From positions 1-64,000 of the forward strand of contig BQIV01000003.1 of the NCBI GenBank assembly GCA_021604005.1: a stretch of DNA of 64,000 bases, written 5' to 3'. Positions 22,760-48,226 of the stretch are shown here, one piece after another; position 1 is the first letter of the stretch, and every line of letters begins with the position of its first letter. A program made the position numbers and the translations under genes. The notes beneath the pieces are model-generated. The model searched no databases. It worked only from the letters and a program-made list of their open reading frames with translations, and was not told the origin of the DNA. Source of the stretch: Nitrospirales bacterium. Its GTDB lineage: Bacteria; Nitrospirota; Nitrospiria; Nitrospirales; UBA8639.

Positions 22760-23275
22760 CGACTCAATCCTTTCAACAACGTTCTGCGAGTCGTGTCGCG
22801 TATGGTCTGGGATACGGGAGTCCTGTGTCCGAACGCATTGCATCATAACGTAGAGGCAATTCTCAAGCTTGGACACCTGTAATGGATATAGCAGAAGGGG
22901 TAAGGCCGCAACAAAAAATATGTGTTGAGTGGGGGGACGGCGAGCAACGACCGTGTCCAAGGGCACCTGTAATGGATGTGAACGAAGGATTAATATGTCA
23001 ACGGAAAAAGGTCTATTGTGCATTCTCAAGGCTGCCAGTGTGATGAAAGATCACGTAAGCAGAAGCAAGAACTCTTTCAGTATTTCCATGTGAATTGCTA
23101 TATAGACACACTGTTTCAGGTGTGTGTCAAAGGATTATATAAAAGTAATGTGAGTAGTACGTGATTCATTTAGCCCTCGTGACATTGAGGTTAATCATCT
23201 TTAGTTGAATTCCTGGCATTTCTGCGTTTGTCCAAAGAGGCTGAATGATGTATAGTTATACACATAAAGAGGTGT
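22760..23275. other. Intergenic region with a 14-bp direct repeat and the TA promoter
   Basis: CACCTGTAATGGAT occurs at 22875-22888 and again at 22965-22978, exactly 90 bases apart; similarity extends weakly on both sides (GAAGG downstream). No gene is supported. The right end carries the promoter-operator of the first toxin-antitoxin pair. Confidence 0.5.
23228..23261 (+). promoter_or_regulatory. Promoter with overlapping palindromic operator, first PIN TA pair
   Basis: A -35 TTGTCC (23228-23233) and a -10 TATAGT (23251-23256) are separated by 17 bases. The -10 lies inside GTATA-gt-TATAC (23250-23261), an inverted repeat suited to autorepression by the antitoxin dimer. Confidence 0.6.
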
Positions 23276-24233: not shown

Positions 24234-24527
24234 ATGAAGACGACGCCGGTTTCTGAGTTAAAAGCCACGTTGAGCGAACAGCTTTCTAGAGTCAAAGCCG
24301 GAGAAGAAGTTATTGTGACGGAGCGAGGAAAGCCGATTGCGAAGATTATTCCTCTTGATGTGGGAAAACTTAGCTTGTCTGCTCATGTATCCGAATTAGC
24401 GAGGAGCGGACTTGTTCGATTGGGAGGAGGAAAGATTCCGAAAGACGTGTGGAAGCTTCCTCGCCCTGTCGATAAGCAGGGCCGTGGGTTGAAAGTGCTT
24501 CTTGATGAGCGAGAGGATGGGCGATGA
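24234..24527 (+). CDS. Phd/YefM-family antitoxin
   Basis: A 97-aa antitoxin. The N-terminal Phd/YefM fold (KTTPVSELKATLSEQLSRVKAGEEVIVTERGKPIAKIIP) dimerises and binds the operator. The C-terminal half (about 55-97) is the toxin-binding tail. AAGGAG precedes the ATG at proper distance. Its stop overlaps the toxin start by four bases (ATGA), so the two are translationally coupled. Confidence 0.93.
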   Translation: MKTTPVSELKATLSEQLSRVKAGEEVIVTERGKPIAKIIPLDVGKLSLSAHVSELARSGLVRLGGGKIPKDVWKLPRPVDKQGRGLKVLLDEREDGR

Positions 24528-24946
24528 AGTTTTGGGATACGTCTGCGTTACTTCCCATATGTCTTCAGGAACCTCAAACCACTCAAGTCAAGAACCTGAT
24601 CAAACAGGATGATAATATCGTGGCTTGGTGGGGTACATTGGTTGAAGGGTATTCAGCGTTCGCCCGCCTTCGCCGTGAAGAAGTCTTGACCGAGAAAGAT
24701 GAGTTTCAGTCACGGCAGATTCTTACTCGTTTAGCTGGTGTTTGGACGGAAGTTCGACCGAGTAATCCTGTTCGTGATCATGCTGGACGAGTGCTGCTTC
24801 TCCACCCTCTGAGGGCAGCAGATGCACTGCAGTTGGCTGCGGCTTTAGTTTGGTCTGGCCGCCAAACCACGTATTCAGGGTTTGTCTGTCTGGATCATCG
24901 ATTGCGTGAGGCTGCACGTCGAGAGGGGTTTCAGGTACTGCCGTAG
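24524..24946 (+). CDS. PIN-domain toxin paired with a Phd-type antitoxin
   Basis: The 140-aa PIN domain has FWDTSALLPI (D5), the conserved glutamate in LVEGYSAFARL, the aspartate in RAADALQLAAAL and the terminal CLDHRLREAA aspartate. All four metal ligands are present. It is a VapC-like endoribonuclease whose partner is of the Phd fold rather than VapB, a common combination. It overlaps the antitoxin gene. Confidence 0.92.
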   Translation: MKFWDTSALLPICLQEPQTTQVKNLIKQDDNIVAWWGTLVEGYSAFARLRREEVLTEKDEFQSRQILTRLAGVWTEVRPSNPVRDHAGRVLLLHPLRAADALQLAAALVWSGRQTTYSGFVCLDHRLREAARREGFQVLP

Positions 24947-24966: not shown

Positions 24967-25386
24967 TCACCTTCCATCATCAGCATCGCGAATCAGCGTA
25001 CGCACCACATGTCGTTCAGCACGCGGCCCATCGAATTCACAGAAAAAGATGTTCTGCCAGCGAGATAAACCTAATTGCCCATCAATGATCGGAATCGTTT
25101 TTGATGGACCGACAAGGCCAGCTTTCAGATGGGAATCGCCATTGCCATCCTGTGTATCGTGTAGCCACACGCCTGGAGTAAACCAGTGAGCGGAGAAGAT
25201 TGACGACATCAAAGGGAGGCTGTCGTCCCAGTTTTCTTGGACCATGATAGCGACCGTCGCCCCTTGAACCAATGCATGCATAACTCCATTTTTGATGCCG
25301 CACTGTTCAAGAATTATACAAACAGTTTCAATGATAGTGAGCAGTTGCTCGTGCTGTGTGGTTTGTGGGGTGATCGTCTTGTACAT
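24967..25386 (-). CDS. YjbQ/UPF0047-family protein
   Basis: A 139-aa single-domain protein with the family signature GDSHLKAGLVGPSKTIPIIDGQLGLSRWQNIFFCEFDGPR, which contains the proposed active-site residues. The N-terminal half (GATVAIMVQENWDD) is more divergent than usual. Members are annotated as secondary thiamine-phosphate synthase-like; the in vivo role is not settled. It converges with the PIN toxin gene. Confidence 0.87.
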   Translation of the reverse strand: MYKTITPQTTQHEQLLTIIETVCIILEQCGIKNGVMHALVQGATVAIMVQENWDDSLPLMSSIFSAHWFTPGVWLHDTQDGNGDSHLKAGLVGPSKTIPIIDGQLGLSRWQNIFFCEFDGPRAERHVVRTLIRDADDGR

Positions 25387-26629
25387 AAACCAGACGACGA
25401 AGTAGTCAGACGCTACCCTGTTGCCTTATGGGGATGGTGGGTTGACTGTTAATTTCTCTATCAAGCCGGACTGTGACATGGTATTCATTTACCATGAATA
25501 TTAAAATTTTTGTCCAAAAATTCATGGTACTTGGGGATGCGCTGAATATTGGATTGGGTGAAATGGCGAGATTGTCTTTGTGATACTCATAAAATGGTTG
25601 TGTGGATCGCAATTGACCTATGGCTTCCCTGTTCAGTTTTAAAATCCTCACTTGTTTCTATTGATTCTTTTGACTATTAAGAGTACATATATAGGTAACA
25701 CTTGACATTGTGAACATCGAAGCGGACTGTGCGACAGCCATTTTAGATTCGATGAAGAGGACGTTAGTAATCGCATGGACCTAGTGATGCTAGGTGCCGT
25801 TCATAAGAAATTTCCTATCCATAAATTATTAACAAGGAGACCTTAAGTTATAACACGTATGAAATGTTCGTAAGACGGGCCAACTTGGTGAAGGAGAGAA
25901 GTTGTAGCTTGCAGAGGGCGAAACAGGAAACAATGTGTGAAATACTTTCTGGTTCTTGAATCAAATAGATAGTCTTTTGTCTTAATACGCTTTTCCATTT
26001 GTCTACTGGGTTTATTTTAAAATTCGATTGTGATGACCTGTCGCTCCTGCCGATGAGTTTTTGTGAAGACTACACTTCTCACCCTTTTCTTGATAATCCT
26101 ACAGATCATGATGTAAGCATTCGTCATACTCCTTTCGGATCCGTAGGCGACCCTCCAGGTTCCCCGTTCTGTTTTTGAGAAATTCTCTTGATAATTGAAG
26201 GTCGGGATTGAGTCCGTGTGGGATTTCTGCCTTCGGTACATGGATGTGTATGCTCATATTTCTGACGTATAGAAACGACGGATAGATGTTTTGTCGGATT
26301 CGTAGCTTGAATTTAATGATTACTGCACTTCTATATTTTAATCCTTGCACATTCTACTTTAAGTGAACGTATGTTTTGCGGGAAACTGTCGAGGTAAATT
26401 CAACATGAATTCCTACTCATGTCTTCCTTGCAACAAGGGATACAGTATCCCTAATCTTGCCAATCAAAATTATAGTGCGGAAATTGAGCAGGTCTTTCGT
26501 GCACTGTAAGAACGGCTTGATTAGGTGGTCTTTGAGCGAGCATGGGAAGGTATTGTCGCATGTTACAAGTTTGACTGAATTTGTATGAAAAATAGAAATC
26601 AACTGATCTTCAATACGAAAGTTTGAATT
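25387..26629. other. AT-rich gene-free stretch upstream of the PKS-NRPS cluster
   Basis: About 1.24 kb with only short frames of no recognisable content on both strands. No promoter stands out before the first biosynthetic gene, and its ATG lacks a good Shine-Dalgarno. The stretch and its counterpart after the cluster mark the edges of an AT-rich island. Confidence 0.45.
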
Positions 26630-28918
26630 ATGTTAAAGGTAACAATTTTAGCAACGTTTACGCCTGATCCTATTCGAAAAAGCATGCGGTTTTGGGGAAA
26701 TACATTTGGTCTTGATCTTCAATTAGAGTTTGCTTCCTATAACCAAGTTTTCCAGCAACTTCTTAATCCCAATAAGTGCATTGTTCAAAATGGGCAAGAG
26801 GTCTATCTATTGCTGATATGTCTTGAAGATTGGGTCTATATTCCACATGGACCGGCAGGCCAAGCCGGTAGACCGTCACTGAGACAATTAGATGCTAGGG
26901 CCCCAGAGGTCAGCTGTTCGTTGCGCAAGGTAGTACACGAGTTTATTGCAGTTCTCAAGACAACAATTTCCCCATTGTCCGCTCCACATCTTGTCATGTT
27001 TTGTCCGCCGGCATATGGTGAGATGGAGGAGACCACAGAAGAATCTTCTTTAACACACATGTTTCGAGAAATAGAACAGGAAATCGTGGAGGAAACACAT
27101 GGTACTGAAAATCTCTACTTTGTAACGACAGAAGAACTGCAGCGGATATACCCAGTTCAAGAATATTATGATCCATATGCTGATCGTATTGCGCATATTC
27201 CTTTTACGGATGAATGTTTTACGGCTTTCGGCACAATGGCGATGCGCAAAATTGTTGCTTTGCAGCGACCTCCATACAAGGTCATTGTTTTGGATTGTGA
27301 TCATACCCTTTGGCAAGGAGTATGTGCCGAAGATGGTCATGAGAATATTTCGATTGAGGAGCCATACCTTACTGTACAGATGTTTATGCGTGCCCAATAC
27401 GAGGCAGGAATGCTCCTATGTTTGTGCAGCAAAAATCGAGAAAAGGATGTGTTCGATGTGTTTGTCAACCGATCTGAGATGCTGCTAACGCTCGATCACG
27501 TCGTAGGCTGGCGCATCAACTGGCAACCCAAGTCAGAAAATATCAAATCGTTAGCAAAAGAGTTAAATCTAGGGTTGGATAGTTTTATTTTTGTTGATGA
27601 TAATCCAATTGAATGCGCGGAAGTGCAAGCCAATTGTCCTGAGGTCTTCACAATTCAATTGCCCACAGAGGTCTCGAACATTCCTCATGTTTTGGAGCAT
27701 GTTTGGGCGTTTGATCATATGAAGATTACACAAGAGGATAGGGGACGCACTCTCCAATATCAGCAAAATATAGAACGTGAACAAGCTTGCAAGAATGCTC
27801 TGTCCCTAGAAGATTTCATTGCAACATTACAACTGTCTGTTCACATTTCCGCAATGAGGAAGAGTCAACTTCTACGAGTTTCACAACTTACGCAACGTAC
27901 GAATCAGTTTAATTTGACAACGCGACGCTGTACAGAAGGTGATATTCAGCACTGGATTCAGCAGCCGGATCGACATGTGTTGGTCGTTGAGGTTAGTGAC
28001 CGATTTGGGGACTACGGATTAGTCGGTGTCATTTTGTATAGAATTGAGGCACTTCACTTGGATGTTGATTCATTCTTGCTGAGTTGTCGAGTGCTTGGTC
28101 GTGGAGTGGAACATCGTATGCTTGAAGAAATTGGGAGGATTGCAGGCAAACATGGGTTGAATACGGCTCAAGTTGTTTATAGGCCAACAAGAAAGAGCAA
28201 ACCAGCGTTTGACTTTATCCGTAGTATCGCTGCAAGCGTTGATCAATGTCTTCCTACACATTCAGAGATTCTAAATAATGAAGAAGAAGTACGGGTCACG
28301 TTCCCAACGCAAACTTTACAGACGTTATCATGTTTGACAATGACCAGCGCCACTCAAAGTGATCAACTGAACGACGGTGTCGCTTCTTCTGATCAAGAAA
28401 AAAAGTCAAATAATGATGCGCTCAATCCAATACGAAGTATATCCGATCTTTCTCGTGTCTTCATATGGATTAGCGAGGAAATGGCAAATGCAAAAAAAAT
28501 ACTACAGCATGTTTTGGCTGAAAAACGTCCACGTCCGGTGTCGCAACAGACCTACGTAGGGGCAAGGACTGAGACGGAGCGACTGCTTAGAGCAATCTGG
28601 ATGGACGTATTGGCCCTTGAAGATATAGGCCTGAATGACAGTTTGGAAGAACTTGGCTGCAGCTCGCTTCACGTTGTCCAAATTCACAGCAAATTGGCAA
28701 AACTCTTTTCTTCTACTAATACTTCCGCAAGCATTCCTGTCACCACAATCTTTCAATATCCGACTATAAGGAAATTGGCAAGTTTTATCGATCGAGGGAA
28801 TAATGATCCACAGGCTTTGGCGTACATAGTGAAGTCTCGAGCGGCACTGCAGCAGTCTGCTTTTTTGCGCTTTCGTGAAGGAAGAAAAAACCTACCAGCC
28901 AAAGGGGCTCATTTATAA
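26630..28918 (+). CDS. FkbH-like HAD-family acyl-loading protein fused to an acyl carrier protein
   Basis: The protein has 762 aa. About 215 N-terminal residues form a SGNH-like/FkbH leader domain. The HAD-IIIC core starts at VIVLDCDHTLWQGVCAEDG, with nucleophile and acid D222 and D224 in the DxDxT motif, and continues with LCSKN and SFIFVDDNPIECAEV. A GNAT-like FkbH C-terminal domain follows (about 400-540). After a Ser/Asn-rich linker an ACP is fused (about 640-725), with the phosphopantetheine serine S679 in LGCSSL. FkbH-type enzymes take a glyceryl unit from 1,3-bisphosphoglycerate, dephosphorylate it and load it on an ACP; some load lactate. Here the fused ACP and first position in the cluster suggest it makes the starter unit. 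Confidence 0.88.
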   Translation: MLKVTILATFTPDPIRKSMRFWGNTFGLDLQLEFASYNQVFQQLLNPNKCIVQNGQEVYLLLICLEDWVYIPHGPAGQAGRPSLRQLDARAPEVSCSLRKVVHEFIAVLKTTISPLSAPHLVMFCPPAYGEMEETTEESSLTHMFREIEQEIVEETHGTENLYFVTTEELQRIYPVQEYYDPYADRIAHIPFTDECFTAFGTMAMRKIVALQRPPYKVIVLDCDHTLWQGVCAEDGHENISIEEPYLTVQMFMRAQYEAGMLLCLCSKNREKDVFDVFVNRSEMLLTLDHVVGWRINWQPKSENIKSLAKELNLGLDSFIFVDDNPIECAEVQANCPEVFTIQLPTEVSNIPHVLEHVWAFDHMKITQEDRGRTLQYQQNIEREQACKNALSLEDFIATLQLSVHISAMRKSQLLRVSQLTQRTNQFNLTTRRCTEGDIQHWIQQPDRHVLVVEVSDRFGDYGLVGVILYRIEALHLDVDSFLLSCRVLGRGVEHRMLEEIGRIAGKHGLNTAQVVYRPTRKSKPAFDFIRSIAASVDQCLPTHSEILNNEEEVRVTFPTQTLQTLSCLTMTSATQSDQLNDGVASSDQEKKSNNDALNPIRSISDLSRVFIWISEEMANAKKILQHVLAEKRPRPVSQQTYVGARTETERLLRAIWMDVLALEDIGLNDSLEELGCSSLHVVQIHSKLAKLFSSTNTSASIPVTTIFQYPTIRKLASFIDRGNNDPQALAYIVKSRAALQQSAFLRFREGRKNLPAKGAHL

Positions 28919-28939
28919 TTTTGTTGAAGGCAATACACA

Positions 28940-31921
28940 ATGGATGATGTTCTTCAGCCTAAGAAGCAAGTGAATGGGGTGAATTGTTTGCCGGATTCTA
29001 TTGCCATAGTAGGAATGGCCGGTCGTTTTCCTCAGGCTCGTAACATCAAAGAGTTTTGGCAGAACATACAAAATGGCATTGATTGTGTGAGCACGTTTTC
29101 AGATGACGAACTTGAGTTGTTAGTCTCTGATCGTGCGCTCATACGTAAAAGTCAACATTACGTTAGAAAGGGAGCCATTGTTGATGATGCAGACTGTTTT
29201 GACGCTCAGTTTTTTGGATTACAACCCAAAGATGTGGACTGCATGGATCCTCAGCATCGTCTTTTTCTTGAATGTTCATGGCACGCGATCGAAGATGCTG
29301 GATATGATCCAATTCGATACCAAGGACGAATCGGAGTGTTTGCAAGCTGCTACATGAACACCTATCTTTTGGCTAATCTTGACGCCAATCCAGAATTTGT
29401 CGCGGGGCTAGTAAATTCCTTCCACGGGGGATCATTACAGACGGAGCTAGGCAATGATAAGGATTATTTAGCAACTCGAGTGGCTTACAAATTGAATTTG
29501 CGTGGTCCGGCCATGACGATACAAACGGCTTGCTCATCATCGTTGGTCGCCGTAACCCAAGCTTGTCAAAACCTCATGACTTATCAATGCGATATGGCAT
29601 TAGCTGGTGGAGTGACTCTCCGTTTTCCCCAGAAACGTGGATATGTATATACGCATGAAGGGATGGTTTCTCCTGTAGGACAATGTCGCACATTTGATGC
29701 AAATGCAAAGGGGACCATTTTTGGAAACGGTGTTGGCGTGGTGCTGTTAAAACGACTTGAAGATGCCCTGAACGACGGTGACAGTATTTATGCGCTTATT
29801 AAAGGTTGGGGGCTGAATAACGACGGTGGGGCAAAGTACAGCTATACGGCACCTAGTGTTGATGGACAAGCCGATGTGATTGCCCTTGCTCAATCGTTGG
29901 CCAATGCTTCGGCAGATTCGATTACGTATGTCGAAGCGCACGGTACGGGGACTTCACTTGGCGACCCTATCGAAGTTGAAGCGTTAACCAAAGCCTTTCG
30001 CCTCACGACTAATAACAAGCAATATTGTGCGATTGGATCGGTAAAGACCAATATTGGCCATCTCGACTGTGCGGCTGGCATTGCAGGACTGATCAAAACA
30101 TCTCTGGCACTGCATGATAAGCTTCTTCCGCCTAGTCTTCATTTTGATGCACCAAATACTAAGATTGATTTTCCCAATACACCATTTTATGTCAATACAA
30201 AATTATGCACCTGGCCAGCGGGAGAGACTCCACGGCGGGCAGGCCTCAGCTCTTTTGGCGTCGGCGGTACCAATGCCCACATTGTCTTGGAAGAAGCACC
30301 ACAGTATCAGCAACAGTCTAACACGAAAAAATCCTATTGCCTCTTTCCACTTTCTGCAAAATCTCAGGCGGCCTTGAAAACGATGTCAATCAATTTAGCG
30401 AAGCACCTTCAGGAAAACGAGAATTTGAATGTGAGTCATGTAGCAAGAACGCTGCAGCAGGGACGATCGGAGTTTAATCACCGGCGTGTTGTAATTACGA
30501 AGAGTCTGAAAGAGGCTAATGATTTTCTCTCCGAGGATGGTCCCAATCCTTTATTAGGACGTGTACTGGGGGATAACGCACCGGTTATTTTTATGTTTCC
30601 TGGGCAAGGTTCTCAGCATGTCAATATGGGGCGTGATCTATATGAAACTGAGCCAGTATTTCGTCAATGCATAGATCAGTGTTCGGAAGTACTTCTCCCA
30701 CTTCTTCAGTTTGATATACGTGAACATCTGTATCCAAACCACAGGAACCAAAAAGATGAATGTCAAGAAGGCAATGACCAGAAAGGACTGAATGAAGAAG
30801 CAAACATTAGTCAGACGCTCATAGCACAACCGGGAATTTTTATTACAAGCTATGCGCTTGCCAAACTTTGGATGCATTGGGGAATTCATCCTGAAGTAAT
30901 GATCGGGCATAGTATTGGTGAATTCGTCGCTGGGTGCTTGGGTGGAGTCTTCTCGCTAAAAGATGTGTTGGCTATGGTTGTAGCTCGGGCCAGAGAAATG
31001 CAGGAGCTTCCTACAGGTTCGATGCTATCCATTCGTTTAGGAGAAGCGGACGTTCGGCAATTTTTACATGACTACGGTATGGAAGGGCGAATTGACCTTG
31101 CTGTCATAAATAGCCCAACGCTCTGCGTCGTATCAGGGGCGACGGATGTAATTCATACGCTCCATGCCCAACTGGAGAAACAGCACATCATATCTCGTCT
31201 ATTGCACACCTCACATGCCTTTCATTCACACATGATGGAGCCTGCTGTACAGTCATTTAGGAAGTTGCTGCAGGCTGTATCTCTTAACCCCACGACTATA
31301 CCTATCATGTCTACTGTCGGAGCCGACTGGTTAAGTGAAATCCAGGCTACTGATCCGGAATATTGGGCACGTCACTTACGAAAGCCTGTGAACTTCTCAG
31401 GCGGAATTCGTGAACTTCTGAAAGACGGACAAAGTATCTTCCTAGAAGTAGGACCAGGGCAGACCCTCAGCACACTCGTCAAGCAACATATTAACCGTCC
31501 ATCAGATTCCCTCATCTTGTCCTCCTTGCCGCATGCGCAACAAACTGCTGATCAGTACAAATATCTGCTTTCAACATTGGGGAAGTTATGGATTTCTGGG
31601 AGACAAATCCAATGGACAGCACTCGATGATACATCTATGCCAATACGTGTTCACCTCCCGACGTATCCTTTTGAAAAAAAACGATACTGGGTAGAGCAGA
31701 AATCTCCAACAGTTGCATCCGATTCGTCAAATATTAACTCTCCTTTAACATCTGTCACAGGTGCTGTTTCTAGCCAAATTACAGCGGGATCACACGGCAT
31801 AAGGCCCGATGAACCAGACCGTGCTTCAACACAAGTAAGGCAAGGCCAGATGGATGAAATATTACAACATCAGATTGAAATCATGAAACAACAGCTGGAC
31901 ACATGGAACTGCAAGCAATAG
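28940..31921 (+). CDS. Type I polyketide synthase, KS-AT didomain
   Basis: The protein has 993 aa and no ACP. The ketosynthase (about 17-435) has the full triad: C198 in TACSSS, H334 in EAHGTG and H374 in NIGHLD. The acyltransferase (about 550-860) has GQGSQ, active serine S658 in GHSIGE and HAFH (759-762), the motif that usually signals malonyl-CoA. The C-terminus after FEKKRYWVE is a disordered linker plus a helix (EILQHQIEIMKQQLDTW) that could dock to the next protein, where the missing ACP is found. No KR, DH or ER is present, so the extension product should be a beta-keto thioester. It starts 21 bases after the FkbH gene. Confidence 0.93.
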   Translation: MDDVLQPKKQVNGVNCLPDSIAIVGMAGRFPQARNIKEFWQNIQNGIDCVSTFSDDELELLVSDRALIRKSQHYVRKGAIVDDADCFDAQFFGLQPKDVDCMDPQHRLFLECSWHAIEDAGYDPIRYQGRIGVFASCYMNTYLLANLDANPEFVAGLVNSFHGGSLQTELGNDKDYLATRVAYKLNLRGPAMTIQTACSSSLVAVTQACQNLMTYQCDMALAGGVTLRFPQKRGYVYTHEGMVSPVGQCRTFDANAKGTIFGNGVGVVLLKRLEDALNDGDSIYALIKGWGLNNDGGAKYSYTAPSVDGQADVIALAQSLANASADSITYVEAHGTGTSLGDPIEVEALTKAFRLTTNNKQYCAIGSVKTNIGHLDCAAGIAGLIKTSLALHDKLLPPSLHFDAPNTKIDFPNTPFYVNTKLCTWPAGETPRRAGLSSFGVGGTNAHIVLEEAPQYQQQSNTKKSYCLFPLSAKSQAALKTMSINLAKHLQENENLNVSHVARTLQQGRSEFNHRRVVITKSLKEANDFLSEDGPNPLLGRVLGDNAPVIFMFPGQGSQHVNMGRDLYETEPVFRQCIDQCSEVLLPLLQFDIREHLYPNHRNQKDECQEGNDQKGLNEEANISQTLIAQPGIFITSYALAKLWMHWGIHPEVMIGHSIGEFVAGCLGGVFSLKDVLAMVVARAREMQELPTGSMLSIRLGEADVRQFLHDYGMEGRIDLAVINSPTLCVVSGATDVIHTLHAQLEKQHIISRLLHTSHAFHSHMMEPAVQSFRKLLQAVSLNPTTIPIMSTVGADWLSEIQATDPEYWARHLRKPVNFSGGIRELLKDGQSIFLEVGPGQTLSTLVKQHINRPSDSLILSSLPHAQQTADQYKYLLSTLGKLWISGRQIQWTALDDTSMPIRVHLPTYPFEKKRYWVEQKSPTVASDSSNINSPLTSVTGAVSSQITAGSHGIRPDEPDRASTQVRQGQMDEILQHQIEIMKQQLDTWNCKQ

Positions 31922-32065
31922 ATCTAGATTGGAAGTAAGGTGGACGAATAGGTTCGTCAATGAAACGTGAATACGGTTCAGGGGCAAACACGATAATATA
32001 GATCATTTTTGAATACTCGTTTATGCGGAATAGCTCGCTAATATTTCAAACATGAGGAAGGGATC

Positions 32066-35000
32066 ATGTCTGCCATTGATTTAGTAGGTAACCCACGTCA
32101 TCGGTACCTCTTTTCAGCAATCAAAACGCTTTTATTTGATCTATCAGGAGCGGATCTAGACGAACTTGATCGCTCAAGCACTTTTCTTGAACTTGGATTT
32201 GATTCTTTGTTTCTCATTCAAATGAGTACGGCAATGAACGTTGAATTAGGCATAGATATTTCATTTCGTCAACTCATTGAAGAGATCGATACGTTTGAAC
32301 GTCTGTTGAGTTATCTCGACATCAATGTGTCCAAGGAAGTTGTTTCGATTTCCGATAAAAAAATTCAATTGCAATCAGACAAGCCTATTGCGAATGGAAC
32401 GATCTTCCAGGACCCCGTTTCTCTAGAAGTTTCTCCAGAAGCGCCAATTTTACAATCGTCTACTAGTTTGCAGAGAAACAGTAATGGACTTGAATCACTC
32501 ATTCACCAACAACTGGAGTTAATGGCTCAACAATTGACTGTATTGAAACGAGCAGGGAGTGCGATGGAAAGCACTCCCGATGCCTTGCTAAACAAAACAA
32601 ATCAAGATACTGAAAATATTCAAGAACCTACATATGGATCAAAGGCAATAGTATCAGAGAAAAGGCGTGCAGAAGAGAGCAAGCCATTTGGTGCAATCGC
32701 ACGCATCACACGGGGAACAACTGGAGCATTATCCTCTAGGCAACTGGAATGGTTAGGTGCGTTTATTCAACGTTATAATAAACGAACATATCGCTCGAAA
32801 GACTATGCTGAAGAACATCGCCCGCATATGGCTGATCCCCGTGTGGTTACTGGATTTAAATCGAAAATTAAAGAACTCATTTATCCAATTGTTGTAGATC
32901 GGACGGAAGGATGCCATATCTGGGATATAGACGGTAACGAATACGTAGATGCTCTCAATGGGTTTGGCTCTAATTTTTTTGGCTATAAACATCCGAAAAT
33001 AACGCAGGCTGTCGTTGATCAATTATGGCGAGGAGTAGAAATTGGTCCTCAATCCCCAATTGTAGGCAATTTGGCTAGAACAATCTGTCGGTTAACAGGA
33101 ATGGAACGTGCCGCATTTTGTAACACGGGTTCTGAGGCAGTGATGGGGGCCATGCGCATGGCGCGTACCGTGACAGGTCGTAGTTTAATTGCCATTTTTA
33201 ATGGTGCATATCACGGGATCTTTGATGAGGTCCTAGTCCGTGGTACCAAAAATCTTCGTTCTGTTCCAGCAGCGCCTGGTATATTGCCTTCCAGTGTTGA
33301 AAATGTGGTCGTGTTAGATTACGGCACAGATGAAGCTTTGAAGATCATACGTGAGCGTGCTCATGAACTGGCTGCGGTCATGGTTGAACCGATTCAGAGC
33401 CGTCAACCGAATCTAAGGCCGCGAGAGTTTTTACACGAGATTCGTGAGATTACGAACAAGTCGGGGGCTGCATTTATTTTTGATGAAGTAATTACGGGAT
33501 TCCGTCTGAGCCCAGGAGGAGCTCAGCAGTACTATAATATCCGTGCTGATATCGCGACGTATGGCAAAGTGATTGGAGGAGGGATGCCTATCGGTGTGAT
33601 TGCAGGCAAGACAAGGTTTATGGATGCCTTGGATGGTGGAGCCTGGTCGTATGGAAATGATTCGTTACCTGAAGTCGGTGTCACGTATTTCGCAGGGACG
33701 TTCGTGCGCCACCCAGCCGCTATGGCTGCGTGTCAAGCGGCGATGGAGATTCTTCAAAAAGAGGGTCCGGTAATTTATAGCCGGTTGAATGAGCAGACAA
33801 CTTATTTGTGTGTTGAACTCAATACATTATGTAAAACTACCGGCGTACCACTTAAAGTTGAATCTTTTAGCTCTCTGTTTCGAATAATGTTTACCGAACA
33901 TGTGCCTTACGGCGAATTACTCTTCTACTTAATCCGGGAAAAAGGAGTACATATTTATGATGGGTTTCCCTGCTTCCTGACGATGGCTCACACCGATGCT
34001 GATGTCAATCATATTATCATGGCTTGTAAAGAGAGCATCCTTGAATTACAACACTTTGGGTTTCTCGCCAATTCATCAACCGTCGCTTGTTCTTCAGAAG
34101 AGTCATGTCTTTCTACGTCGTCGGAAAGACAACGAGGATTAGAAAGTAAGAAGTTTTCTGCTGACTTACCACAGGAAATAAACGGAGGTGTGCGGAGAGA
34201 CCAGAACAAGGGGTTCGATACTAGCCTTACATCGGCTGTCCCAGTGAAGGAGAGTTTCCCCTTAACTGAAGCGCAGATGGAAATTTGGTTAGCCTCGCAT
34301 ATGGGTGATATCGCGTCTTGTGCCTATAATGAGCCATTTATACTTACTCTATCCGGTTCGCTCAACTTCGAAGTGCTGGAGAGTTCTATTCAAACAGTTC
34401 TGTTAAGGCATGAGGCTCTTCATGTTCGTTTTGATCTTACTGATGCCTATCAAAAACAAGTTCCCACCGAACCGATACACATTGGGTTTATCGATCATTC
34501 CTCAGATAATTCTCAATTACAATTTGAGAAATTGCAAGAATTGTTGATTAAGGCCGGGAGAACTCCATTTAACCTGGCTGTTGGTCCAATGGTGCGGGTC
34601 CAAATTATCAAACTGTCAAGTGAAAAGCACATTGTGGTGTTTTCGGCACATCACCTTGTCTGCGATGGATGGTCGTGGAATGTCATGCTCCGAGAGATTA
34701 GCGCAGCCTATTCGGCAAAGGTTCAGGGTCGCGATTACGAATTTTCGTCTGCAGCGTCTTATCGAGCCTATGTAGAAAACGAAATCAAAGAGCAAAATAG
34801 TGAGAAGACAGAAAAGGTGTATTCCTATTGGATGAAAGAACTTCTTGATTTACCTATGTCTCTTGACTTACCAACTGATCGTTCCCGTCCACGAACAAAG
34901 ACATACAATGGTGCCACGGTGACATCTTTGTTTGATGCCAATCTCTATAAAAAGATTAAAGAAATGGCCGTAGGAAAGAAGGTGAGTTTGTTCGCGTTGA

Positions 35001-38000
35001 CCTTCGCAGTCTTCAATGTTTTGTTAGCACGATTATCCAATCAGCATGATCTGATTGTCATTGTTCCCACAGCTGGACAGTTGTTCGTATCCACAGATGT
35101 GCTTGTAGGGCATTGTGTGAATTCATTTCCTGTACGTTCGCGCCCCGAGCCCAGTATGCCTTTCACGCAATTTCTTTCATCAACAACGACGAAAATTTTT
35201 GAAATGTACGACAACCAGGGCTGTACGTTAGGGGGTATCATCAAGCGATTACAAATCCCGCGTGATACAAGTCGTTTGCCTTTGGGAGAGGTTACTTTCA
35301 ATCTTGATCGAGATGGGGCTGCCATGCATTTTCACGGCCTGCGAGCTACTGTTCAGCAAGCTCCTAAGCAAGCTGTTTACTTTGATCTCTTTTTCAATCT
35401 CAATGAAGGCAATAGTATGCTGCGTATCGATATCGATTACAACCGAGATCTTTTTGATGAAGAAACTATTCAACATTGGATGACCTGCTATACAACACTT
35501 TTAGAGGGCGTCGTCGATCATCCTGAGACGCCCATAGGACAACTTCCTCTTCTGAATGAAGGCGAGAAGCGGAAACTTGGTGTTGGCGTGAGTCAATCTA
35601 ATGTTGTGGCTTCGCGGGAGAAATTGGTGCACGAATTTTTTGAAACTCAAGTCGTTCGAACCCCCACAGCCATAGCGGTGGTTTGCGGTGATCATAAGTT
35701 GACGTACGAAGAATTGAATACGAAAGCAAATCAAGTCGCTCGGTACCTTCAAAAAATAGGAGTCAATCCTGAGAAGCTGGTTGGTCTTTATATGGAACGT
35801 TCCTTAGAGTTATTGGTTGGGTTGTTGGGTATTCTGAAGGCTGGTGCGACCTATGTTCCACTCGACCCAATCTATCCTCGAGAACGACTGGCTTTTATCC
35901 TAGAAGATACTCGTGCCACGGTTGTTGTAACTCAAGCGATGTTGAGAGAGCAACTTCCTGAGCAAGCGAGTCAAGTGGTGTGTCTTGATAGTGAGTGGAA
36001 TGAAATTGCGCAAGAGTCTGGACAAAACTCTCGTTTGATTCTATCTGATCAGCAGTTAGCGTATGTTATCTATACGTCCGGCTCAACGGGAAAGCCTAAA
36101 GGTGTTATGGTGACTCATGCCAATGTGACCCGGCTCTTTCAAACTACGCATGACTGGTTTCAATTTGATCATCATGATGTGTGGACTCTCTTTCATTCCT
36201 ATGCCTTTGACTTTTCTGTGTGGGAAATGTGGGGAGCATGGCTCTATGGGGGTCGTCTCATCGTCGTTCCGTATGAGGTGAGTCGATCTCCAGATCAATT
36301 CTATGACCTCCTGTTACGTGAGAACGTGACTGTGCTGAATCAAACCCCTGCGGCCTTTATTCAATTGATTCATGTTGATCAATGTCGGGAGAAGTCGCAG
36401 AATCTAGCGCTTCGCTTCGTAATTTTTGGTGGAGAAAAGTTGGAATTTAATCAGTTGAACCCTTGGGTTGATCGGTACGGCGATGAATGCCCAAGACTGA
36501 TTAATATGTACGGGATTACCGAAACGACAGTCTTTGCCACCTATCGTCCGCTTCGAGCTAAAGAGTGTCTTGAATCCTCTTCTCCCAGAAGTGTCATTGG
36601 GCGACCATTACCTGATTTGGAACTGTATATTCTTGATGATCACCAACAGCTTGTGCCAGTTGGAGTGCCAGGAGAAATGTATATTGGTGGCGCAGGAGTT
36701 ACTCGAGGTTACTTAAATCGTTCTGATTTGACACAAGAACGATTTATTCACAATCCGTTCAGTAGCGCTTCTCATTCACTACTGTACAAATCAGGGGATT
36801 TGGCACGGTGGTTGCCTGATGGTGATATTGAGTTTCTCGGGAGGTCGGACCACCAAGTCAAAATTCGAGGATTTCGAATTGAGATGGGAGAAGTTGAGTT
36901 TGTGCTTGCCCAACATCCTGCCGTGTCTGAAGCTGTGGTTATCGCGAAAGGTAATACCTCAAGAGAAAGACGGCTTGTGGCTTATATGACATCAAGGAAT
37001 GGGACAACGGCGAGTGTTGATGACTTACGAACGTTGTTGGAGAAATCACTCCCTTTTTACATGGTTCCGGCTACCTTCGTTTGGATTGATTCTCTCCCGC
37101 TCACTGCGAACGGCAAAGTCGATCGAAAAAAGCTTCAGAGCGGGGAATCATCGCTACCCAAAGTCTCCACAAACGCATATGTGGCACCTCGAAACTCCTT
37201 GGAGCGTCAAATAGCCGCAATTTGGGAAGAGGTATTAAAGAAACGTCCAATAGGAATGACGGATAATTTTTTTGACTTGGGAGGAGAGTCTTTTCTTGCG
37301 GTTCGATTGGCGATGGAATTAGAGCGGGTTTTAAAGGTCAAAATCGAAATTCCTATTATTTTTCAATCTCAAACGATTGAAAAATTGAGCAATATGATAC
37401 ACAAAGACCGAAAAGAAGAAAATGAGTGTTCATGGATAATTCCAATTCAAACACATGGATCAAATCCGCCAATCTTCTGCATATTGTTTGGAAATACATT
37501 CAGACCTTACATGGACGTTTTTCCAGAACAACCGTTATATATGTTCTATGATAAAAAGCACGATGGAAGACCGGTTCCTTATTTTACGGTGAAGGAACTC
37601 GCCGCGCAGTATGTGAAGGAGATGCGAGAGATTCAGCCATTCGGCCCATATTATTTGGCGGGATACTCGTTCGGAGGGCTTGTAGCTTACGAAATGGGGC
37701 GACAGCTTCATGAGCAGGAACAGGTCGTAGCCTTTCTTGCACTGATAGATCCTACGATGCCTCTCCCACAGTCTTTACGGCCAAGTTTATCAAATAAATT
37801 GAAAGATATAGTAATGGGAAGTAGAGATAAGAGCATGCAGGAATATCATCAGAGTGTGGCGATTATCTCTCGACTTACCGAAATTTCTAAAGATGCGCTA
37901 TCGCATGGATCGAGGTTGTTTCCAAAGTTAAGGAATCGATTAAGGCTTCGAGCTTGTCGATCCTACTTTAGATTTGGTCTTCCACTCCCTCTTTCACTGA

Positions 38001-38251
38001 GATCCTTTTATCATAAACATGTTGCCCTCCAAGCTGCGAAGCAATACATTCCCCTACCCTACGCAGGGGAAATTGTACTTTTTCAAACTGAGGAAACTTT
38101 AGAGGAGTATTGGCGGAGTTTATGTGCAAGCGTGAAGAGGGTGCATCACCTTCCTATCGGTCATCGAAAGGTAATGTATGAACCTTATGCAAAAACCTTC
38201 TATATGCAATTCATGTCTGCACTCCAAGAAGTACAAAGGGAGGAGAAATAA
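32066..38251 (+). CDS. Hybrid ACP-aminotransferase-NRPS (C-A-PCP) with terminal thioesterase
   Basis: A 2061-aa megasynthase. Order: ACP (1-90, S47 in LGFDSL); class III PLP aminotransferase like those in iturin-type synthetases (about 235-665, Lys501 in YGKVIGGG); condensation domain (about 729-1165, HHLVCDG at 862-868); adenylation domain (about 1190-1690, YTSGSTGKPKG at ~1336, YKSGDL, NGKVDRK); PCP (about 1705-1775, S1742 in LGGESF); thioesterase (about 1795-2050, S1868 in GYSFGG, His in IGHRKV). The pocket residues read by eye are DFWNIGMVFK; the known threonine code is DFWNIGMVHK. The aminotransferase should turn the beta-keto group on the ACP into a beta-amine before amide formation. 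GAGGAAGGGA precedes the ATG. Confidence 0.93.
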   Translation: MSAIDLVGNPRHRYLFSAIKTLLFDLSGADLDELDRSSTFLELGFDSLFLIQMSTAMNVELGIDISFRQLIEEIDTFERLLSYLDINVSKEVVSISDKKIQLQSDKPIANGTIFQDPVSLEVSPEAPILQSSTSLQRNSNGLESLIHQQLELMAQQLTVLKRAGSAMESTPDALLNKTNQDTENIQEPTYGSKAIVSEKRRAEESKPFGAIARITRGTTGALSSRQLEWLGAFIQRYNKRTYRSKDYAEEHRPHMADPRVVTGFKSKIKELIYPIVVDRTEGCHIWDIDGNEYVDALNGFGSNFFGYKHPKITQAVVDQLWRGVEIGPQSPIVGNLARTICRLTGMERAAFCNTGSEAVMGAMRMARTVTGRSLIAIFNGAYHGIFDEVLVRGTKNLRSVPAAPGILPSSVENVVVLDYGTDEALKIIRERAHELAAVMVEPIQSRQPNLRPREFLHEIREITNKSGAAFIFDEVITGFRLSPGGAQQYYNIRADIATYGKVIGGGMPIGVIAGKTRFMDALDGGAWSYGNDSLPEVGVTYFAGTFVRHPAAMAACQAAMEILQKEGPVIYSRLNEQTTYLCVELNTLCKTTGVPLKVESFSSLFRIMFTEHVPYGELLFYLIREKGVHIYDGFPCFLTMAHTDADVNHIIMACKESILELQHFGFLANSSTVACSSEESCLSTSSERQRGLESKKFSADLPQEINGGVRRDQNKGFDTSLTSAVPVKESFPLTEAQMEIWLASHMGDIASCAYNEPFILTLSGSLNFEVLESSIQTVLLRHEALHVRFDLTDAYQKQVPTEPIHIGFIDHSSDNSQLQFEKLQELLIKAGRTPFNLAVGPMVRVQIIKLSSEKHIVVFSAHHLVCDGWSWNVMLREISAAYSAKVQGRDYEFSSAASYRAYVENEIKEQNSEKTEKVYSYWMKELLDLPMSLDLPTDRSRPRTKTYNGATVTSLFDANLYKKIKEMAVGKKVSLFALTFAVFNVLLARLSNQHDLIVIVPTAGQLFVSTDVLVGHCVNSFPVRSRPEPSMPFTQFLSSTTTKIFEMYDNQGCTLGGIIKRLQIPRDTSRLPLGEVTFNLDRDGAAMHFHGLRATVQQAPKQAVYFDLFFNLNEGNSMLRIDIDYNRDLFDEETIQHWMTCYTTLLEGVVDHPETPIGQLPLLNEGEKRKLGVGVSQSNVVASREKLVHEFFETQVVRTPTAIAVVCGDHKLTYEELNTKANQVARYLQKIGVNPEKLVGLYMERSLELLVGLLGILKAGATYVPLDPIYPRERLAFILEDTRATVVVTQAMLREQLPEQASQVVCLDSEWNEIAQESGQNSRLILSDQQLAYVIYTSGSTGKPKGVMVTHANVTRLFQTTHDWFQFDHHDVWTLFHSYAFDFSVWEMWGAWLYGGRLIVVPYEVSRSPDQFYDLLLRENVTVLNQTPAAFIQLIHVDQCREKSQNLALRFVIFGGEKLEFNQLNPWVDRYGDECPRLINMYGITETTVFATYRPLRAKECLESSSPRSVIGRPLPDLELYILDDHQQLVPVGVPGEMYIGGAGVTRGYLNRSDLTQERFIHNPFSSASHSLLYKSGDLARWLPDGDIEFLGRSDHQVKIRGFRIEMGEVEFVLAQHPAVSEAVVIAKGNTSRERRLVAYMTSRNGTTASVDDLRTLLEKSLPFYMVPATFVWIDSLPLTANGKVDRKKLQSGESSLPKVSTNAYVAPRNSLERQIAAIWEEVLKKRPIGMTDNFFDLGGESFLAVRLAMELERVLKVKIEIPIIFQSQTIEKLSNMIHKDRKEENECSWIIPIQTHGSNPPIFCILFGNTFRPYMDVFPEQPLYMFYDKKHDGRPVPYFTVKELAAQYVKEMREIQPFGPYYLAGYSFGGLVAYEMGRQLHEQEQVVAFLALIDPTMPLPQSLRPSLSNKLKDIVMGSRDKSMQEYHQSVAIISRLTEISKDALSHGSRLFPKLRNRLRLRACRSYFRFGLPLPLSLRSFYHKHVALQAAKQYIPLPYAGEIVLFQTEETLEEYWRSLCASVKRVHHLPIGHRKVMYEPYAKTFYMQFMSALQEVQREEK

Positions 38252-38771: not shown

Positions 38772-39113
38772 CTATGAAGCGAGAGTGGTGGCAAATCGTA
38801 AGGCCTCGGCAAACGTCCGGTAGTCTCGAAAGTCTATAGGTGTGTGATCAACCGGGAGAGGTGTTCTCGGGATCATGGATTCGATAAGCCGTTGATACGT
38901 CGTGTGCCATTGATAGACCTTTTTGTAGGCATTTTTGACTTCTGAACGGGTTTGCCACGGAGTGAAGTCAAGGTGTTCATTCACGAGGATTTCCAACCAA
39001 AGAAGGCGAAGGGCTCTTGGACTCTGAAGGACTTTGTCAATTGATGTAAGCCCCGTATATGAGGGTAATAGCTTCATTGGTGGAGCTTGTTTACAAGATT
39101 TTACCATTTTCAT
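38772..39113 (-). CDS. Hypothetical protein (113 aa)
   Basis: Not recognised. The sequence has a believable globular composition (LPSYTGLTSIDKVLQSPRAL, then LLWLEILVNEHLDFTPW and a helical C-terminus) and no signal peptide, membrane segment or cysteine motif beyond the first residues. Starts at ATG 39113 or 39107 are more likely than TTG 39149. It follows the UvrA-like gene by about 90 bases on the same strand and might be co-transcribed. Confidence 0.55.
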   Translation of the reverse strand: MKMVKSCKQAPPMKLLPSYTGLTSIDKVLQSPRALRLLWLEILVNEHLDFTPWQTRSEVKNAYKKVYQWHTTYQRLIESMIPRTPLPVDHTPIDFRDYRTFAEALRFATTLAS

Positions 39114-39202
39114 GTTATGAAGCGTAGGACATTCATAGCAGTCCAGCAAGTTTTCGTGTTGTTTTATTCGTTCGTTTGGTTTGGGTTAAGGATTTAGTGT
39201 TG

Positions 39203-42013
39203 TTAATGACTGATGTGTTCAAACAGCGGCCGCAGGAATCGTCCTGTATGAGATTCTGGAATTTCAAGAATATCTTCCGGTCGTCCTTCGGCAACAATTT
39301 CCCCGCCATGTTCTCCGCCTCCAGGGCCAAGATCAATGATCCAATCTGAACATTTCATGATATCGAGATGATGTTCGACTACGACCACGGTGTTCCCGGC
39401 ATCGACGAGGCGGTTAAGAACCAGTAAGAGTTTTTTGACATCTTCAGTATGAAGTCCTGTCGTGGGCTCGTCGAGAATATAGAGGATGCCTTTGGATTGA
39501 GCAGGTCCACGCTTGCCGGTCGGAAGGCTCGCGAGTTCAGCTGCGATTTTGAGACGTTGTGATTCACCTCCCGACAAGCTGGTGGCAGGTTGACCCAGGC
39601 GAAGATACCCTAGTCCGAGTGAGTCTAAGAGTTTGAGTGGTCGTGCCAGGCTAGGGACTAATTCGCTAAACACGGCCAGTGCATGTTCGATCGTCATGTT
39701 GAGGACATCGTGAATCGAATGACCTCGAACTTGGACGGCTAAGACTTCTGACTTAAATCGGCGCCCTTCGCATTCTTCGCATGTCACATAGAGATCTTCG
39801 AAAAAATACATCTCCAGTTTCTCATGCCCTTGTCCTTCGCAGCGCGGGCATCGTCCCACACCCGTGTTGAACGAGAAATGAGCTGGAGTGAGCCCATGGG
39901 TACGCGCTTCTGGAGTCTGCGCGAACACTTGGCGGATGGCTTGGAAAGCTTTCATGTATGTGACGGGATTCGAGCGGGGCGTTTTGCCGATCGGTTCTTG
40001 GTTGATAAGCCGAACGGTCTGTAGATGTTCCAATCCGGAGATATAGTCGAATTGTCCGACAGGAGGCGTGCCGACTTTAAATGCTCGTGCAGCGGCTGCA
40101 TGGAGGAGGTTTTCGACGAGCGTGCTTTTGCCAGATCCTGAAACTCCAGTAACGCACGTCAACATTGCTAATGGGAGTTGAACGGTCAAATTTTTAAGAT
40201 TATGTTCTCGTGCCCCGGCAATGGTTAAAATTTTCCCATTTCCGGCACGACGATCCCGGGGGATGGAAATTGATTCCTCGCCGCGGAGATATCGAGCAGT
40301 GATGGGATAAGGATCTTTCATGAACAGCGGGTAGGGAGCTGAGCATACAATCTCTCCTCCCTTTTCGCCGGAAGCCGGACCCATTTCCACTACGTGATCT
40401 GCCTGTTCAATCACATGATGATCATGCTCGACGGCGATAACCGTATTGCCATTCTTTGCGAGTTCGTTCAAGAGCATGGCTAAGGCCGCAGTATCACGCG
40501 GATGCAGGCCAATCGTTGGTTCATCCAGCACATACAGTGTGCCGACTAACTTTGATCCCAATTGTGTCGCCAAAGAAATGCGTTGAGCTTCCCCGCCGGA
40601 CAAGGTGCGCATCTCCCGATTCAAGGTGAGATAGTTCAATCCAACTCGGAGAAGGAAAGACAGTTTGGCCTCTAGTGCTTGGACCAAATCGCTTGCGACC
40701 TCACGGTCAAATGGGGTGAGTGTTAAGGTCTGTAGCCAGTCGCGAACCTTTTCTACTGGCCATTGGGAGACTTCATGAATGTTCTGTCCTTGAATGCGGA
40801 CCATCAATGCATGTGGGCGAAGCCGGCTTCCCTGACATGTTGGACAACGAGACGGACTTCGATAACGACTGAGGAAGACACGAACATGCATCTTGTAGCG
40901 TTTGCCCTCCAGATATTTAAAAAACTGATGAATGCCTTCCAGTTTTTTTTCACCTTCCCAGAGAAGTTGTTTTTCCTCACGTGAAAGTTTTTCATAGGGT
41001 GTCGCGATCGCCAGTTTTCGTTTTTTGAAACCTTTGAGCATCTCATCCTGCCACCAGTGATTGGACGGCTTTGTCCATGGTTCTATCGCGCCGTCTTTGA
41101 GCGATTTTGCTGGATCGGGAATAATGAGGTTTTCGTCATAGTGGAGAATATTGCCGAATCCTTTACACTCAGGACATGCGCCTAAGACATGGTTGAATGA
41201 AAAGTGTACGGGCCGAACGGTGTCAAAGGTTTGATGACATTGTGGGCATCGAAGTGATGTGCTGAAGCTAAAGCGTTTATCGCCTACGACTTGCACTTGG
41301 GCAAACCCATGCCCTTCTTGAAAGGCTGTCTCCAAACTCTCAACAAGTCTGGAACGATTATCCTCTCGAAGGACAAGTCGATCGATGACGATGTGTAGCG
41401 TTGGCTGTGTGAACGTTTTTGGTATGGGGTCCGTGTTGAGATTCAGGACTTGATCATGGTGAAGCAGGCGAACGTACCCTTGTTTGAGCAATGATGCAAT
41501 ACAATCGGGAATCTGTTTAGGTTTTGGCGCGTCAATGGAAAACAGAATGAGGACGCGGCTGTGTTCGAACTCTTCTAACAGCTTCTGAGCCACGGATGCC
41601 GGTTGATGGGCTTCGGCTTGTAGGTGGCAGTCAGGACAGATGAGGCGACCGATCTTGGCAAAGAGGAGGCGTAGATAATCAGAGATTTCACTAGCTGTTC
41701 CTACGGTTGAACGAGATGTTCGAACGGGATTCTTTTGTTCAAGGGCAATGGCTGGACGAATGTTGAGGAGTCGATCGACATCAGGTCGACTCACTCGCTC
41801 CAAGAACATTCGGGTGTAGGAAGACAACGATTCGATATATCGCCATTGTCCTTCGGCAAAGATGGTATCGAACGCGAGTGATGACTTTCCGGAGCCCGAC
41901 ACTCCGGTAATCACCGTGAGGGCGTTGTGTGGGATTTGGAGCGAAATATTTTTGAGATTATTTTGTCGTGCGCCTTCAATGATGAGGTCGCGATGTATAC
42001 TTGCGTCTGTCAT
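39203..42013 (-). CDS. uvrA: UvrA-like excinuclease ABC ATPase
   Basis: This 936-aa protein has the complete UvrA architecture. Two ABC modules carry Walker [21 protein letters not shown] (~33) and [15 protein letters not shown], each with an LSGGEAQR or LSGGESQR signature and an [12 protein letters not shown] or [12 protein letters not shown] Walker B. Zinc-binding CxxC pairs are seen in ICPDC, RCPQC/ACPEC, RCPTC and RCPRC/TCEEC. The [28 protein letters not shown] segment differs from the usual SPAISIEQKT form and is more like secondary UvrA paralogues, so this may not be the only uvrA in the genome. The start at MTDASIH is chosen for the GGGGA upstream. It recognises DNA damage with UvrB, which is not in this window. 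Confidence 0.9.
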
Positions 42014-42136
42014 GTGTTGATTCCCCAAAAGGAAACTGTAACAGCTTAGGCATGAGCGTGCCACTGATAAGCGTGAAGCGTGAAATATTGAAGCTGTGTG
42101 TCTTAACTTTGGGGATAGAGCAGAAGATCAGGGACG

Positions 42137-47002: not shown

Positions 47003-48226
47003 CTATTGGTAGCGGAGTGCTTCAGCCGGGTCGAGTTTTGAGGCTTTGATTGCGGGGTAGAGGCCAAAGAAGACACCCACAATGACGGCAAAGGAAAAGG
47101 CAATAACAATCGCGGGTGGTCGAATCACCGCTCCCCAATCTCCTCCGCCAGGCATAGCTTGTGCCACAACATCCCCAAATCCGTAAGCCAGGACAATTCC
47201 CGTAAATACGCCAATGAGCCCTCCCACGACGCTAATCGTCACCGACTCAATGAGAAATTGCAGGAGGATATCTTGCCGTCTCGCCCCAATGGCTTTTCGG
47301 AGGCCGATCTCTCGTGTCCGTTCCGTCACTGTAACCAGCATAATGTTCATGATGCCGATGCCGCCCACAACCAGCGCCACGACAGCGATGCCGCCGAGGA
47401 CCATGCGAAATGTCCAGATGGTGCGGTCCACCGCGTTCAGAAAGTCTCCTTGATTGCGGACGCGGATATCGTCGACTCCATCATGCCGTTGAATCAGAAA
47501 CGCATGGAGTTGCTTCATTGTAGGGTCCATCATCTCTCGTTTCGGTACGTGAATGACCATTGACTGTAACGTGTCGGTTCCTTGGAAACGCCGGATGGCC
47601 GTGGTCACGGGAATAAAGATCATGTCATCGTAATTTGATCCATATACGATGCCTTTAGGCTGCATGACTCCGACTACGGTCAATCGTTGAGTCCCGATGT
47701 TGACTTCTTTGCCGACCGCCGATTCACTCCCAAACAAGCGTTCGGCGACATCCTTTCCTAACACCACGATCCGTTTCCATTCGTCAATGTCTTCTTTGAA
47801 AAGGAAGCGCCCTTGAGCGGCTCGAAAGTTTCTGGCTTCGGCGTATTCAGGCGTGGTTCCCGTAATCTCTCCGCTGAAATGCCGGTTGCCCGCTTTGATT
47901 TGTTGTTCAAACTCGACGCGAGGGACGACATGAAGGTGAGGGAATTTCTGACGAATAGCCAACGAATCATCATAGTCCAACCCAGTTGATCGCCCTTTAA
48001 ATAATCGTTGTTCTTCGGCGGTTAAGGATTTTTTCCAGACAAACAGCAGATTGGTTCCAAGTCGTTCAATGGAACTCACGAGCCAGAGTTGACCGCCTTC
48101 CACGATAGCAATCATCGTGATGACCGAGGCGACGCCAATAATTACTCCAAGCATCGTGAGTGCTGACCGAAGCAGATTGGCCGATAAATTTCGAAAGGCG
48201 TCAAGGATAATGGCATGGAACAGCAT
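47003..48226 (-). CDS. MacB-type ABC transporter permease (FtsX-like)
   Basis: A 407-aa permease with one N-terminal membrane helix (LLRSALTMLGVIIGVASVITMIAI), a large periplasmic MacB_PCD domain (about 60-260) and three C-terminal helices with the FtsX motif (GGIGIMNIMLVTVTERTREIGLRKAIGA). The start is ATG 48226, because the upstream frame lies in the ATPase gene. It pairs with the ATPase just before it. The separate ATPase and permease differ from the fused E. coli MacB. This is a mechanotransmission-type exporter for peptides, lipoproteins or small molecules. Confidence 0.92.
   Translation of the reverse strand: MLFHAIILDAFRNLSANLLRSALTMLGVIIGVASVITMIAIVEGGQLWLVSSIERLGTNLLFVWKKSLTAEEQRLFKGRSTGLDYDDSLAIRQKFPHLHVVPRVEFEQQIKAGNRHFSGEITGTTPEYAEARNFRAAQGRFLFKEDIDEWKRIVVLGKDVAERLFGSESAVGKEVNIGTQRLTVVGVMQPKGIVYGSNYDDMIFIPVTTAIRRFQGTDTLQSMVIHVPKREMMDPTMKQLHAFLIQRHDGVDDIRVRNQGDFLNAVDRTIWTFRMVLGGIAVVALVVGGIGIMNIMLVTVTERTREIGLRKAIGARRQDILLQFLIESVTISVVGGLIGVFTGIVLAYGFGDVVAQAMPGGGDWGAVIRPPAIVIAFSFAVIVGVFFGLYPAIKASKLDPAEALRYQ

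Follow-up and report, generated by a model that had tools for sequence, protein, structure and literature searches.

A presumably FkbH-started beta-amino acid assembly line in a Nitrospirales bacterium, probably built in the chromosomal slot of an amino-acid-loaded relative

Introduction

How does an assembly line for a beta-amino acid come to begin with an FkbH module, and what would such a line make? The question is raised by three colinear genes at positions 26630–38251 of the window, as we call the whole 64,000-nucleotide stretch analysed here (contig BQIV01000003.1 of the Nitrospirales assembly GCA_021604005.1). A preliminary description, made from the letters alone, had recognized in them an FkbH-acyl carrier protein (ACP) module, a ketosynthase-acyltransferase (KS-AT) protein and a third protein in which an ACP is followed by aminotransferase (AMT), condensation (C), adenylation (A), peptidyl carrier protein (PCP) and thioesterase (TE) domains; the domains, their order and every catalytic motif are confirmed. 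The present analysis suggests that this hybrid line probably arose, within a fixed chromosomal slot, out of a line loaded by a C-A(Thr)-PCP module. The earlier interpretation is supported in part, although it had overlooked a common family of A-loaded AMT lines, a line of that family in the same slot of congeners, the fossil of a loader gene and an exchange of the A-domain core.

Results

The line consists of the following features, given with their strand.

26630–28918 (+): fkbH gene, FkbH-ACP, the presumed starter module; 762 amino acids (TIGR01686 and PF00550, motifs, fold match to 3slr plus GNAT)
27293–27604 (+): HAD motifs of the FkbH-ACP protein
28652–28669 (+): segment holding the ACP serine of the FkbH-ACP protein
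28940–31921 (+): gene 2, KS-AT extension module with a malonyl-type AT; 993 amino acids (PF00109, PF02801, PF00698; motifs; KS tree)
31214–31225 (+): HAFH motif of the AT in gene 2, a malonyl signature
32066–38251 (+): gene 3, ACP-AMT-C-A-PCP-TE, for predicted amination, Thr condensation and release; 2061 amino acids (Pfam, motifs, 6kfm match)

The FkbH domain (amino acids 216–535) scores 312.6 bits with the NCBIfam model TIGR01686, above the cut-off of 146.65, and a Pfam PP-binding domain follows at amino acids 652–720. Its catalytic residues D222, D224, K301 and D323, together with C486, presumably the acyl-carrying cysteine, are all present and are invariant in an alignment of nine homologues. 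In the motif table the rows of G471, G056 and G054, blank or truncated by a wrong reading frame, were disregarded. An AlphaFold model of FkbH, of moderate quality (mean pLDDT 73.5), resembles the HAD structure 3slr, and part of it resembles GNAT folds. In gene 2, Pfam finds KS and Acyl_transf_1 domains, and the motif check finds the KS residues C198, H334 and H374, the AT serine S658 and HAFH at residues 759–762, which stands as the malonyl signature previously read there. The Pfam order of gene 3 is PP-binding, Aminotran_3, Condensation, AMP-binding, PP-binding and Thioesterase, with a C-domain HHxxxDG motif at 862–868 and the TE residues S1868, D1895 and H2033. The carrier serines are S679 in the FkbH-ACP protein and S47 (ACP) and S1742 (PCP) in gene 3. 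The best solved-structure match of the AMT is the AMT of MycA (6kfm, E 5e-131), whose type it follows in its PF00202 class-III pyridoxal phosphate (PLP) fold, its catalytic lysine K501 and its position between ACP and C. The A-domain code, DFWNIGMVFK, agrees with the Thr code DFWNIGMVHK at nine of ten positions; the Thr proposed earlier stands as the predicted substrate. No KSQ or alternative loading domain is present in the line, no FkbI or FkbK dehydrogenase occurs among the scanned open reading frames (ORFs) of the window, and no Rfam family was found in its 24–40 kb region.

Relatives of the line were sought through the AMT in one genome per species (84,980 species), which gave at least 576 related stretches, the best 80 of which (L027–L106) were examined. 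Wherever the contig reaches far enough upstream, the loader in these 80 is A-PCP, followed by KS-AT, ACP and AMT and mostly then by C-A-PCP-TE; a few short contigs have no visible loader. FkbH lies within 10 kb in none of the 80. Most of them have a Pro-like (DVQFxAxVVK), Val-like or Thr code in the loader and a Gly-like code in the second A domain, the substrate names being those commonly attached to such codes. Within the host's class, 6 of 270 genomes carry an AMT line, its own included; the other five have C-A-PCP upstream, or C-PCP in one case (L123), and FkbH in none. As judged from its domains, the window line is a variant of this widespread A-loaded AMT family, made of parts of known kinds. 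With other members (G003, G004, G246 and lines of Bacteroidota, Xanthomonadales and cyanobacteria) it shares the order KS-AT, ACP, AMT, C, A, PCP, TE, and the AMTs are 51–61% identical; it differs in that those lines have an adenylation loader (Thr, Pro-like or Val-like) and usually a second A domain of Gly type, whereas here FkbH-ACP occupies the loading position and a C-A-PCP loader survives as a 5′ fossil alone. The family is very large, with members in Mucilaginibacter, Pedobacter, Spirosoma, Lysobacteraceae and others, often with a Pro-like loader and a Gly-like second code; no characterized product of it was found in the literature searched.

Four further features connect the line with its chromosomal position.

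24973–25377 (−): left border of the slot, within the conserved flanking ORF 24967–25386; DNA 72–76% identical to G003/G004
39203–42064 (−): uvrA, right border of the slot (PF17760/PF17755); DNA 77% identical to G003/G004
26400–26566 (+): fossil remnant of a C-A-PCP loader gene, its 5′ end, about 55 codons with two in-frame stops (match to the start of the G003/G004 loader)
36068–36880 (+): Thr A-core in gene 3, apparently transplanted, amino acids ~1335–1605 (sliding protein identity; DNA 71–72%)

In two genomes of the same genus, G003 and G004, the same slot carries a two-gene line, which consists of a C-A(Thr)-PCP protein of 1098 amino acids and a KS-AT-ACP-AMT-C-A-PCP-TE protein (2989 amino acids in G004). 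Both borders lie on one contig in G003 (a left-hand block with DUF2959 and a 909-amino-acid ORF; uvrA-ROK-deaminase as the right border), the contig of G004 begins inside the left border block, and the flanking DNA is 71–77% identical to both genomes on either side of the slot. In G001 the slot holds other genes, with no AMT line; G002 also lacks an AMT line, and its slot is divided between two contigs. The G001 homologue (54%) of a small ORF at 38772–39149 (−) is located on the left-hand side of this slot, which suggests that the content of the slot has been shuffled.

The fossil encodes a protein segment 38–44% identical to the start of the G003/G004 loader (best E-value 5e-7 when the whole window is searched; DNA 68%), it has an ATG that aligns to a Met codon of the loader, and its 3′ end lies about 64 bp upstream of fkbH. 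Its score is 104, compared with a maximum of 56 in dinucleotide shuffles, none of which (0/1000) reached 104. Since this segment matches the first ~55 codons of the loader at a level unreached by shuffles, a congener-type loader gene must once have begun here.

The A domain of gene 3 has two affinities. Over most of its length, in 50-residue windows, the A-core is 64–86% identical to the congener loader A domain versus 13–58% to the A domain of module 2; the contrast fades near residue 1600, where both identities are high. The breakpoints lie at the A3 motif and near A8, and outside the core gene 3 is closer to congener module 2, in its C domain as in Asub, PCP and TE. In the A-domain tree (all trees here are quick searches, with SH-aLRT as the only support), the window A domain is the sister of the congener loader A domains with a support of 99. 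According to a published rule, natural Acore exchange retains the C-A linker and the Asub-T interface (PMC8097286), and here too a core from another module is joined to a retained linker and Asub-T.

FkbH was also followed through the phylum, in 396 genomes with two candidates scored per genome. FkbH-ACP modules whose FkbH regions are 39–52% identical to that of the window occur in G471, as DH-FkbM-FkbH-ACP followed by KS-AT-KR-ACP, and in G454, followed by C-A-PCP. The loader in G471 (L131:2936–11640, contig C73), with its FkbM methyltransferase, resembles the first module of the oocydin protein OocJ. In L135 (G323:C15) and L136 (G340:C1:2094001–2114000), a stand-alone FkbH lies immediately 5′ of a KS-AT-ACP-AMT-C-A-PCP-C ORF; a domain check of G323 showed it to be accompanied by 3-hydroxyacyl-CoA and acyl-CoA dehydrogenases (FkbK-like and FkbI-like), and these FkbH proteins probably supply a hydroxymalonyl-type extender to the AMT line. 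Within the searches made, FkbH-ACP directly 5′ of KS-AT and ACP-AMT was found in the host genome only. No record in a plasmid collection covers 80% of the colinear FkbH-KS-AT-AMT query, and none of the plasmid FkbH matches examined (Aquisphaera, Niallia) has an AMT nearby. The closest plasmid relative of the window FkbH, on a plasmid of Aquisphaera giovannonii (L107:13950–16961), is an FkbH-ACP-TE protein in an exopolysaccharide/exosortase cluster, where it perhaps acylates polysaccharide. The ACP of the FkbH-ACP protein is 26–36% identical to all candidate sources, both the old loader PCP and an FkbH donor.

Discussion

Because FkbH and its ACP are fused and colinear with the line, and FkbI and FkbK are missing among the scanned ORFs, we take this module to be the starter. 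FkbH would take up a three-carbon unit (in all likelihood D-glyceryl derived from 1,3-bisphosphoglycerate), dephosphorylate it and load it onto its own ACP; KS-AT would extend this unit with malonyl and leave the keto group unreduced, so that the next ACP carries a beta-ketothioester; the AMT would convert the beta-ketone to an amine; and the C domain would join the resulting 3-amino-4,5-dihydroxypentanoyl unit to the Thr selected by the A domain. The TE would then release C9H18N2O6 (calculated [M+H]+ 251.124) or a cyclized form (233.113). Substrates, stereochemistry and release mode of the line are all predictions of this kind. As to its history, the loader gene was probably lost except for its 5′ fossil, with FkbH-ACP now in its place, and a Thr A-core of the old loader type probably moved into the condensing module. 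In this account the domains, motifs, order, slot, fossil and core swap come from the sequence, and from them we infer the chemistry, the glyceryl substrate and the order of events. Taken as a whole, namely that a glycolysis-primed line arose from an amino-acid-loaded beta-amino acid line by loss of the loader, arrival of FkbH-ACP in its place and transfer of the Thr A-core, and that it makes a new 3-amino-4,5-dihydroxypentanoyl-threonine product class, the proposal is evenly balanced between being right and wrong.

Several observations weigh against this model of the line. The domains of the line, the A-core apart, are 39–65% identical to G004, compared with 76–81% for the uvrA protein; in the AMT tree, the window AMT branches separately from those of the congeners; the A code has F instead of H at its ninth position; and the first module of the oocydin synthase, which contains FkbH (DH-MT-FkbH-ACP), is thought to be non-functional (PMC4552970). 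The first two of these points mean that the whole line, or further pieces of it, may have been exchanged. An FkbH-loaded AMT line that was already complete and had diverged in some other lineage might have displaced the old line as a whole, with no editing of the resident genes, and spared only the 5′ end of the loader. We regard this explanation as less likely, though far from remote: KS, AT, AMT, C and TE are 43–57% identical to G003/G004 while the flanks are far closer, and the AMT tree places the AMT with proteobacterial and myxobacterial lines. However, the KS tree puts the KS in the clade of Nitrospirales AMT lines, the A-core goes with the congener loader and the PCP is 65% identical to its congener counterparts. 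Moreover, neither the AMT relatives nor the plasmids nor the phylum FkbH scan yielded a donor with both FkbH-ACP and AMT.

The remaining alternatives concern what FkbH does. The starter might be lactyl or another three-carbon unit, giving 3-amino-4-hydroxypentanoyl-Thr (calculated [M+H]+ 235.129). Some FkbH loaders do supply D-lactyl, as in bryostatin, but most FkbH modules in the literature consulted load glycerate, and we consider this variant unlikely. It is more doubtful still that the FkbH domain does nothing, as has been suggested for the oocydin module, and that another primer, such as malonyl or acetyl, starts the line; against that precedent stand the intact and invariant catalytic residues of FkbH and the lack of a KSQ or other loading domain. 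Very improbable, finally, is that FkbH-ACP makes a hydroxymalonyl-type extender for the AT and KS. In the biosynthesis of FK520 and tetromadurin, FkbH does so together with FkbI- and FkbK-like genes (PMC7489565), and a set of this kind lies next to the AMT line of G323. FkbGHIK sets for hydroxymalonyl- or methoxymalonyl-ACP, which resemble the arrangement in G323 with FkbH beside a KS-AT-ACP-AMT line, nevertheless consist of a stand-alone FkbH and two dehydrogenases, whereas the window FkbH is fused to an ACP and the scanned ORFs hold no dehydrogenase pair; its AT is also of the HAFH malonyl type, and no alternative loader precedes the KS. The preferred reading, which we hold to be probable, is a line started by FkbH-ACP and built in place.

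The single elements have known parallels. FkbH modules that replace A domains and load glycerate occur in vioprolide and cystomanamide (PMC8949500), corramycin (PMC10099666) and suomilide (PMC13122637) biosynthesis, and the mycosubtilin AMT aminates an ACP-bound beta-ketothioester (PMC3870968). In the suomilide/banyaside loader and the vioprolide and corramycin modules, FkbH and a carrier likewise take the place of an A domain and bring in a glycerate-derived unit, but in nonribosomal peptide synthetase (NRPS) contexts and not before a KS and then an AMT. The MycA AMT of mycosubtilin and iturin, likewise a class-III PLP domain between ACP and C, differs in acting on fatty acyl substrates in a line without FkbH. 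The cystomanamide synthetase (ctm) has an internal C-FkbH-PCP module, and its product contains a beta-amino fatty acid (PMC9581180). It likewise unites an FkbH module with a beta-amino acyl unit, but FkbH is internal there and a long fatty acyl unit bears the beta-amine. The amine of cystomanamide is reportedly introduced by a reductive amination step. That the combination of an FkbH starter and an AMT had not been recognized from any characterized cluster therefore holds within the searches made, with the qualification of the cystomanamide synthetase and of two genomes of the same phylum.

If the proposed history is true, a record of natural re-engineering is readable at one locus. Exchange of starter modules and of A-cores are goals of engineers; nature apparently made both here and left the seams, the fossil and the breakpoints, visible, and the presumably functional junctions can be read from the sequence. 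The line also gives a predicted mass to seek in a little-studied nitrifier order.

Genomic surroundings

The absence of an adjacent phosphopantetheinyl transferase, pointed out in the preliminary description, is real but uninformative: the genome has three genes of this family (ACPS family) elsewhere, one of them on the same contig (C3:150239–150559), and carrier activation should therefore be available. One candidate for export was considered.

47003–52218: MacAB/HlyD/OEP export operon (profile scan of window ORFs)

We rejected it as a dedicated exporter because it is syntenic in G001 and G002, neither of which has an AMT line. The GC content at third codon positions is 0.38–0.41 in the line, lower than in its neighbours (0.44–0.58); congener lines are likewise low (0.40–0.43).

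The host is taken to belong to the order Nitrospirales, in a family different from that of G054. A search of the host genome for 16S sequences found none, and the placement rests on G054, which belongs to that order: over 190 amino acids its chlorite dismutase shows 100% identity to PDB 3nn1, the enzyme of Ca. Nitrospira defluvii. In the host, the PF06778 gene was rejected as a Nitrospira-type chlorite dismutase, being closer to coproheme decarboxylases. NRPS and hybrid NRPS-polyketide synthase clusters have been reported from Nitrospira of activated sludge (PMC9765116). The host genome itself carries more large synthase ORFs bearing carrier proteins or KS on contigs C13, C40 and C60, for example a 4429-amino-acid ORF on C40, and a phosphopantetheinyl-transferase-family gene lies near one of them on C60.

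Left of the slot, a 909-amino-acid HerA-like ATPase (20300–23029), whose matches to the models for defence-system HerA and mads_8 are weak, is conserved in the congeners. At 24234–24946 there is a possible toxin–antitoxin pair, conserved in G001, in which a small ORF overlaps a match to the PIN domain that is weak and does not reach the Pfam cut-off. The window further encodes a PEP-CTERM protein and, at 58991–63601, two Pup-ligase-family genes that flank a proteasome subunit gene.

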